A DNA stretch of 64,000 nt from Enchytraeus crypticus. Taxonomy: Eukaryota; Annelida; Clitellata; Enchytraeida; Enchytraeidae. Position numbers and translations under genes: made by a program. The DNA lies in NCBI GenBank assembly GCA_905160935.1, contig CAJHZI010000643.1, positions 402,501 to 466,500 on the forward strand, read 5' to 3'. Every line of letters begins with the position of its first letter. The first letter of the stretch is position 1. Positions 41,201 through 44,200 of the stretch are shown here, piece after piece. Under the pieces are notes generated by a model. That model had not been told where the DNA came from and did not search any database. It saw nothing but the letters and a program-made list of their open reading frames with translations.

Positions 41201-44200
41201 CCATAGAAACAATGAAAATATACCCTGGCTTACCCTCCCCCGAGCCCCCCAACCACTGCCATTACTAACATATTTACAAATCGAAATTGCTATAGAAACA
41301 ATGAAAATATAGTTTAAAAAATTTTATCGGCGGACCTAAGGGGTGGGCCTGGGCCCCCTGGGCCCCCCTGGATCCGCCACTGATGATGATGATGACGACG
41401 ACGATGATGATGATAATGATGATGAAATTAATCAATCAATTATGGCATTGATTGCTTGATATTCCAGATAATAGAGAGATTATTATCTAAGCCAGCCGCA
41501 AGAGTTATTGTCCTATTTCTCAGAGTGGAAGATGCACGCGACCTAATGCTGGCGGCAGCGCGATCCAACCATACCCTCTCCAACCACTTCGTGTGGCTGG
41601 CTAGTGACGGGTGGGGTAAAGAAGACATACCTGTGAGGGGCAACGAGAGAGTGGCGGAGGGCGCCCTAACCATAGAGCTTCAGTCTGCCTACATCGCTGA
41701 ATTCGATGATTATTTTAAACATCTTAATCCTTTCACAAATCTCCGAAATCCCTGGTTCAAAGAATACTGGGCACATGTGCATGGTTGTTCGTTTGATGAC
41801 TATGATTTAGGCGATGACGATTATGATTATTCTAATAATGAAAGTGACGGTGAAGAATTGCTAGAACCGGGATCGTCTGCTAATTTAACCGTGATTCACA
41901 ATAATGAAATTAAATTGAATGTTCCCAGTGTAGGTAATTATAAAGACTTTGATGATTCATCGTTCAAAACTCTTAACAGCAAAGAATATGGCAATTATGC
42001 TGAACAAGAAAGCGGAATCAATGACGCTTTTGATTTAGGTTATAATGAAAATCCAGCTTCTACACATTTACAATCAACAGATGCTTATCAGGAGCACGGA
42101 AAGTATTATCCATCTCATGACTTTGATCTCGATCACAGCTATTGGAGAGATGACAAACTAAGATATGTGAGACATGCAAATGATAGATCGATGTCACAAA
42201 AAGTCATAAAGTCACGTAATGAGCAATCATTAAATATCGCCAGTAGCCACCAAAGATATCAAAGAACCTTAACAAACCAAAATACGGAGAGCAATGTTTA
42301 CGCTTCGTTAGAATCACATCACACAAATAAGCAAATTCTGGGTAAAGAAAAAGTCAGTTTATCTTTGAAAGGATCCAGACAAAATATTACTTTAAGGCTT
42401 GCCAGAGATATATCCGACCAACCTAATGCATTTAATATTTATTCAATTAGTTCTGATAGTTCACTAACTGATGGTTATGACAAAACGGCATTCCCAAGAC
42501 ACGAATTAAAGTCTAGAAATCAGTCTAACGTTGAGTTAGATCAATTTAACAAAACAGTTAATACAAACAAGGACCCTGTCAGGAAATATTTTAAGACAAA
42601 GAAGAAAAGAAAAACGAGATGCACAGGGAAAGAAGTTCTAACACCGAGGAAGTACAAGCAAGAGAGCAAGATACAGTTTGTATTCGATGCAGTCTATGCA
42701 CTTGCCTACGCTCTTCATCAACTCATTGAGGATTCTTGCGGGCCAGCACAGGTTGATAAAAAGTTAAGTGAAACAAATGGCAAAAAGTCAGATACGTCTA
42801 AAGCCAGCTGGGTTAATGTAGGAGAGGGAATGGGGAACAAAGAGGTTGTCAATGGAAGAGAGGAAAGATTGCAGTGTATCAGGAATCTTAAAATTGATGG
42901 AAGCGTTCTGTATAAGAAATATCTTCTGAATGTTTCTTTCGACGGTAAATCCATAGTTAACTACTTTCACTCAGAATTAGTTGTGTAAATTACGTTTATT
43001 TAATGAAATAACGAATTAAAATAAATTTAATGAGTTACACACACAACGAGACATGATACATTGTTCCGCAATTATAAGTCCACGAAATTAGCTCTGCAGA
43101 GCAATGAATAGCCATGTAGGCTAATTTATTGACTCGAGCACAGCTATTAATAATTAATATTACAATGTACTAAACTACAGATTTTGTTTAGCATTTCTTC
43201 GTCATTCAAATAGCTTCGGTGACTGTTTAGCATACGATTTGAAATCATTATCTAGTGATCTATTATCTCAAATCTTATCAAATAATTTTTCGCTGTCTCA
43301 GCCAGAGATTATGTAACAAATTCTACAATTACTTTAATGGTATATATAGTCATTTATATCTACATGTATTTGTATTTATTGGTCTGTAAAATCATTTATA
43401 TCTACATATATTTATATTTGTTGGTCTATTTAATCATTTATATCTACATGTATTTGTATTTATTGGTCTGTAAAATCATTTATATCTACATATATTTATA
43501 TTTGTTGGTCTATTTAATCATTTATATCTACATGTATTTGTATTTGTTGGTCTATTTAATCATTTATATCTACATGTATTTGTATTTGTTGGTCTATTTA
43601 ATCATTTATATCTACATGTATTTGTATTTGTTGGTCTATTTAATCATTTATATCTACATGTATTTGTATTTGTTGGTCTATTTAATCATTTATATCTACA
43701 TGTATTTGTATTTGTTGGTCTATTTAATCATTTATATCTACATGTATTTGTATTTGTTGGTCTATTTAATCATTTATATCTACATGTATTTGTATTTGTT
43801 GGTCTATTTAATCATTTATATCTACATGTATTTGTATTTGTTGGTCTATTTAATCATTTATATCTACATGTATTTGTATTTGTTGGTCTATTTAATCATT
43901 TATATCTACATGTATTTGTATTTGTTGGTCTATTTAATCATTTATATCTACATGTATTTGTATTTGTTGGTCTATTTAATCATTTATATCTACATGTATT
44001 TGTATTTGTTGGTCTATTTAATCATTTATATCTACATGTATTTGTATTTGTTGGTCTATTTAATCATTTATATCTACATGTATTTGTATTTGTTGGTCTA
44101 TTTAATCATTTATATCTACATGTATTTGTATTTGTTGGTCTATTTAATCATTTATATCTACATGTATTTGTATTTGTTGGTCTATTTAATCATTTATATC

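Follow-up and report, generated by a model that had tools for sequence, protein, structure and literature searches.

The heads of metabotropic glutamate receptors (mGluRs) are usually regarded as compact. In the vertebrate group II receptors mGluR2 and mGluR3, the two cysteines of the mGluR-type disulfide Cys378-Cys394 enclose 6 and 11 residues, respectively, in printed alignments; the first-pass annotation of the locus described here had given about 6 residues for both, which is correct for mGluR2 but not for mGluR3. A class C disulfide at the presumed equivalent place, C358-C395 of CaSR, encloses 36 residues by number and seems critical for expression and activity (PMC5979557). Like the gene described here, the class IV mGluRs (DmXR/mangetout and relatives) are invertebrate mGluR relatives. 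They are described as having no equivalents of Arg78 and Lys409 (PMC6307864).

The stretch of DNA analysed here (the window) comprises 64,000 nucleotides (C548:402501-466500) of a 524-Mb genome represented by 802 contigs. It contains a stop-free receptor model of 11 exons on the plus strand, running from 34195 to 54126 and encoding 1,890 residues, with GT-AG at every junction:

34195..35232, plus strand: exon 1, signal-like start, N-terminal extension and start of the ligand-binding domain (open reading frame, ORF, 34123-35307)
37985..38239, plus strand: exon 2, ligand-binding domain (YDTC...GGSYSSVS)
39695..39964, plus strand: exon 3, ligand-binding domain with SYASTS, VPSD and GDYG motifs; mGluR3 is the best match
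41468..42944, plus strand: exon 4, ligand-binding domain and insert in a single uninterrupted frame (ORF 41432-42988), with ANF_receptor and mGluR3 matches
46345..46657, plus strand: exon 5, end of the ligand-binding domain and most of the nine-cysteine domain (NCD3G on ORF 46290-46670)
47493..47676, plus strand: exon 6, end of the Cys-rich domain and first membrane helix region
48561..48670, plus strand: exon 7, membrane domain
49620..49749, plus strand: exon 8, membrane domain
51143..51469, plus strand: exon 9, membrane domain (7tm_3); mGluR7 and mGluR3 are the best matches
51617..51633, plus strand: inferred 17-nt microexon, which keeps the frame between exons 9 and 10
52575..54126, plus strand: last (eleventh) exon, final membrane helix and cytoplasmic tail of about 470 residues

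The microexon was inferred because the frames of exons 9 and 10 do not match otherwise. A good acceptor precedes it and GTAAAT follows it; it was picked among several short candidates by splice sites and family fit, its basis being the frame and the splice sites alone. The N-terminal extension, with bounds set by us, comprises about 259 residues and is Cys-free; its charge-hydropathy value (0.435 against a boundary of 0.420) lies slightly on the folded side. No comparable N-terminal extension is known in the vertebrate group II mGluRs.

Several other features of the window and the genome were recorded. The intron separating exons 4 and 5 consists largely of some 70 tandem copies of a 42-bp unit (43338-46301), through which runs a non-gene frame open over 696 codons. 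The exon 6 acceptor sits within a 27-bp tandem array (47293-47501) whose units repeat the acceptor-like motif GATGTTAGG, and alternative exon 6 acceptors may therefore exist. Fragmented open frames at 806-2891 resemble, as judged by eye, the reverse transcriptase of non-LTR retrotransposons. The mitochondrial contig C802 (15,205 bp) follows the invertebrate mitochondrial code. Twelve protein genes were recognised on it by eye, all on one strand and in an order that we take to be the annelid one: cox1, cox2, cox3, nad6, cob, atp6, nad5, nad4L, nad4, nad1, nad3, and nad2; atp8 was not identified on this contig by the same inspection. One-strand coding and a generally conserved gene order have been reported for annelid mitochondria (PMC4505326). 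The contig thus points, with fair confidence, to an annelid. Three stretches of nuclear contigs (L032, L033, and L034) match mitochondrial COX1 and contain in-frame TAA besides TGA, some of them TAG as well; they are probably nuclear copies of mitochondrial DNA.

The exon 4 ORF matched the flytrap domain (PF01094, ANF_receptor; E 1.6e-17), and the membrane domain was recognised as 7tm_3 (PF00003; E 7.7e-30). The exon 5 ORF alone matched NCD3G over positions 1-45 of 54 with E 4.9e-11 and 42.8 bits (cut-off 38.9), and nine cysteines between residues 1080 and 1133 of the model represent the nine-cysteine domain between the flytrap and the membrane. In a comparison between mGluR groups restricted to similarity to solved structures, mGluR3 was the best match of exon 3 (E 5e-32) and of exon 4 (E about 1.9e-37 to 6.6e-37), the best 20 matches of each being all mGluR2 or mGluR3; for exon 9, mGluR7 (E 3e-32) was slightly ahead of mGluR3 (E 5e-32). 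The glutamate-contact motifs are present in order and comprise the surroundings of residues that we equate with mGluR1 Arg78, Thr188, Asp208, Tyr236, Asp318, and Lys409. Unlike the class IV mGluRs, the gene keeps an Arg (GVQR) and a Lys (QESK) at the presumed Arg78 and Lys409 positions; because these positions are filled, it presumably does not belong to class IV, and that identity was rejected. Judged from its sequence, the gene is probably an intact group II-like mGluR, predicted to bind glutamate.

The distance between Cys628 and Cys906 proposed in the first-pass annotation, 277 residues, was the same in the spliced model and lies within one exon. The features of this region are as follows:

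41786..41788, plus strand: codon of Cys628, the first foot of the loop, aligned with mGluR3 QKFQC
41789..42619, plus strand: stretch of 277 codons with an acidic start, Asn/Ser-rich, with five sequons, no Cys, and a basic end
42596..42619, plus strand: basic run TKKKRKTR, aligned with mGluR3 KRNHRR
42620..42622, plus strand: codon of Cys906, the second foot of the loop, placed by the spliced model and the mGluR3 alignment
42740..42874, plus strand: second lengthened loop of the spliced model, 45 residues between Cys945 and Cys991

The loop equivalent to the last one presumably has 6 residues in mGluR3. The flanks of the insert align with mGluR3 on either side and, with the glutamate-contact motifs also in place, the family motifs around the insert are intact, as had been stated at first sight. 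The original description of the stretch as open, acidic at first, bearing five sequons and ending with TKKKRKTR also agrees with our data: there is no stop, and the net charge of the first 40 residues is -13. The sequons are N645 (NES), N660 (NLT), N827 (NIT), N872 (NQS), and N882 (NKT). Since the basic run aligns with mGluR3 KRNHRRVC, it is probably the inherited end of the loop and not new insert, and the insertion proper would comprise about 265-270 residues.

The frame of the insert contained no stops in 277 codons, compared to a mean of 19.7 and a minimum of 7 in 5,000 dinucleotide-preserving shuffles. Cys codons were likewise absent (shuffle mean 5.7), which occurred in 10 of the 5,000 shuffles. 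The codon score was +0.041 per codon in frame 0 and from -0.13 to -0.30 in the other five frames; the best of 1,000 shuffles reached -0.009, and five introns, each read in its three forward frames (15 in total), scored from -0.13 to -0.36. The codon table was built from other low-complexity parts of the same gene, and the score partly reflects amino-acid likeness to them. These codon statistics support a translated, secreted protein stretch. The charge-hydropathy value of the insert (0.364) was on the disordered side of the boundary (0.421), and two folded controls gave 0.478 and 0.491. AlphaFold modelling yielded a pLDDT of 38.8 for the insert by itself, where every residue stayed at or below 70, and 40.2 for exon 4 with five other receptor rows, where the flanks failed too; low confidence of this kind is common to disorder and to scarcity of sequences and cannot separate them. 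No second copy of the insert was found in the genome by protein search or by a DNA search that skips very common words, and no tandem repeats were found within it. An origin from a mobile element was rejected on these two results, save for an element made of very common words, which the DNA search would miss.

A search of the genome with the flank of the insert led to six places, including the window, and a 7tm_3 search gave 27 exon-level matches. In a survey of seven genes, which left aside other class C candidates such as C406, C592, C114, and C554, the loop comprised 277 residues in the window gene, 124 in C702, 22 in C696a, 19 in C696b, 18 in C621a, 16 in C621b, and 14 in C321; giant loops thus occurred in two genes of seven, and the other five had 14-22 residues. 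The giant loop is therefore not unique to the window gene. The C702 receptor (L011) carries, between the same two cysteines, a 124-residue, Cys-free, acid-first insert in one open frame, which is on the disordered side by charge-hydropathy (0.349 against 0.448). It is 32% identical to the window receptor overall, its exon has no SDGW motif and, unlike the window receptor, it bears an additional insert of 194 residues in another loop. A Pfam match of the C702 exon to HopW1-1 (E 0.07, below the cut-off) was treated as chance. The local alignment of the window and C702 inserts scored 42 against a shuffle mean of 39.4, with 102 of 300 shuffles scoring as high, and a common ancestry of the two inserts is unsupported by sequence. 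Long Cys-free inserts were also present in other loops: besides the 194 residues in C702, C696a has inserts of 141, 144, and 60 residues and C621b one of 168, so the window insert is one case among several in which class C receptors of this animal have long loops. The mGluR-like C696a gene (C696:3255444; L012:1501-3293) carries its 141- and 144-residue inserts near the end of the ligand domain in one open frame; two C696a inserts were on the disordered side (0.390 against 0.444 and 0.402 against 0.413). The Ser/Thr-rich C621b insert is part of a 903-codon class C receptor exon (L038, C621:497000-506500) and lies in a loop that, we assume, holds the inter-subunit cysteine in relatives.

We consider the most probable explanation, at about 0.72, to be an intact group II-like mGluR gene whose exon 4 encodes a translated, long, mostly unfolded loop closed by the family disulfide. 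Both cysteines of the Cys378-Cys394 pair are present in the protein. Cys628 and Cys906 would be expected to remain bonded because the presumed equivalent bond of CaSR seems critical. The insert would protrude from the fold as a closed and largely unstructured loop, with glycans on some of the five sequons, and glutamate binding and flytrap closure would remain ordinary. Its origin was probably the growth of a loop that varied in length beforehand. We place this loop on lobe 1, assuming that the helix following it carries the Lys409 equivalent, which belongs to lobe 1 in mGluR1; the placement on the surface of lobe 2 in the first-pass annotation was abandoned since the segment precedes that residue.

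An artefact of the gene model, in which the stretch is partly or mostly intronic, either constantly or only in certain cells, and the receptor has an ordinary short loop, seems unlikely. It would fit the base composition, since the stretch has 34% GC and is nearer to the introns (29-40%) than to the flanks of exon 4 (48% and 41%), but the N-terminal extension (37%) and the tail (40%) are likewise AT-rich. Internal donors at 41850 and 41934 and acceptors at 41979 and 42138 score like the real sites of the gene (cryptic donors 1.6-2.1 and acceptors 1.3-2.1, real donors 0.9-2.4 and acceptors 1.4-3.4, all by assumed site frequencies and not those of this genome). However, the six donor-acceptor pairings, including those with the acceptor at 42751, span 130, 289, 902, 46, 205, and 818 nt, none of them divisible by three. 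Near 42600, no acceptor exceeded the listing threshold, and none of the pairings ends close to Cys906. Splicing from either donor to exon 5 would preserve the frame but delete the Lys409 helix and Cys906, and a Cys-free frame open over 277 codons would be left unexplained. Retention of an ancestral intron was also considered and rejected: the open frame of the class III-like paralogue stops shortly past the second Cys and not within the loop. A different departure from a passive loop is cutting by a proprotein convertase at TKKKRKTR or other basic sites, which would produce a two-chain receptor held by disulfides or release peptides. KKKR and RKTR adjoin Cys906, and RYVR, RYQR, and RLAR occur inside the insert, but these motifs are minimal only and the insert has no tandem-repeated units. 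The basic run is largely inherited, given its alignment with the basic stretch of mGluR3; the class III-like paralogue C696b has RIVRQTRIC in a loop of just 19 residues, and the C702 loop has no terminal basic run. The cleavage suggested at the outset for this run is accordingly improbable.

Capture of a folding domain from elsewhere that binds a partner would account for the aromatic residues of the insert (17 Tyr, 9 Phe, and 1 Trp among 277) and for its non-repetitive sequence. We regard such a domain as quite improbable: Pfam gave nothing above the cut-off (DUF6671, E 0.006, fell below it), a single weak PDB match (E 0.021) was not credible, and both were treated as chance. No other copy in the genome was found, the composition is on the disordered side, and there is no Cys. 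Decay of the gene, with the insert having drifted in a receptor that has lost its function, could be argued from exons 9 and 10, whose common frame is kept solely by the inferred microexon. It is highly improbable in view of the GT-AG junctions throughout, the 1,890 codons free of stops, the ligand motifs, and the nine cysteines of the Cys-rich region.

The window insert and the C702 loop insert share an order of charges. The first and last 40 residues carried -13 (permutation p 0.0002) and +9 (p 0.0015) in the window insert and -17 (p 0.00005) and +3 (p 0.019) in the C702 insert; these were among twelve end tests run after the window pattern was known, with C702 as the independent case and with the 168-residue C621b and 60-residue C696a inserts left out. 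The asymmetry by halves had p 0.0002 in the window insert and p 0.09 in C702. An acidic start with a basic end was not found in the second C702 loop (loop b), the two C696a inserts (e1 and e2), or the N-terminal extension of the window protein, where p never fell below 0.17 for acidity at the start or below 0.096 for basicity at the end; one of these four has an opposite charge order of its own. The other inserts carry other charge runs: loop b of C702 is acidic at its end (-10 over the last 40 residues, with 99.995% of permutations more basic), and C696a e1 is basic at its start (+9 over the first 40). The agreement of the two loops may therefore be a coincidence. In addition, the basic end of the window insert is partly inherited since KRNHRRVC of mGluR3 and RIVRQTRIC of C696b are basic at the same place before the second Cys. 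Repeated lengthening of class C receptor loops in this animal, with two of them converging on an acid-first, basic-last order as a selected regulatory part, is a doubtful proposition. If true, a charge-ordered loop closed by a disulfide could adjust the sensitivity of the receptor, e.g., as a lid that pairs with itself or as an arm that binds sugars or matrix.

With the preferred reading of a translated, mostly unfolded loop, the acidic start and the basic end at the two disulfide-held feet could attract each other and bunch the chain over lobe 1. The likeliest effect would be mild, a bulky, charged, sugar-bearing cap that alters the exposure of the receptor head, its crowding or its partner contacts, and perhaps its sensitivity. 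The simplest reading is a passive, glycosylated, unfolded loop, with tuning, partner binding, and cleavage as possible extras. The glutamate site is apparently kept despite about 270 extra residues in one loop, and such tolerance could be useful for placing tags or sensors.

Compared to known systems, the window receptor appears to be a real but probably modest variation on a well-known receptor. It shares its Cys pair with mGluR2 and mGluR3 and, like mGluR3, is basic before the second Cys, but has 277 residues where these receptors have 6 and 11. The claim that no mGluR with such a loop had been described goes further than the literature searched: no report of a comparable loop was found in the part of the matching papers that was covered, and within the same genome the claim has to be qualified by the C702 gene. 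The C358-C395 loop of CaSR is far shorter than that of the window receptor, and CaSR represents another receptor branch. Elongation of a different lobe-1 loop of CaSR, around residues 47-57, tunes that receptor (PMC9033857). By analogy, this may be taken as a precedent for a tuning role and not as evidence for one in the window receptor, on which it could be tested if class C receptors are tuned by the growth of loops, as happens at that other CaSR loop.
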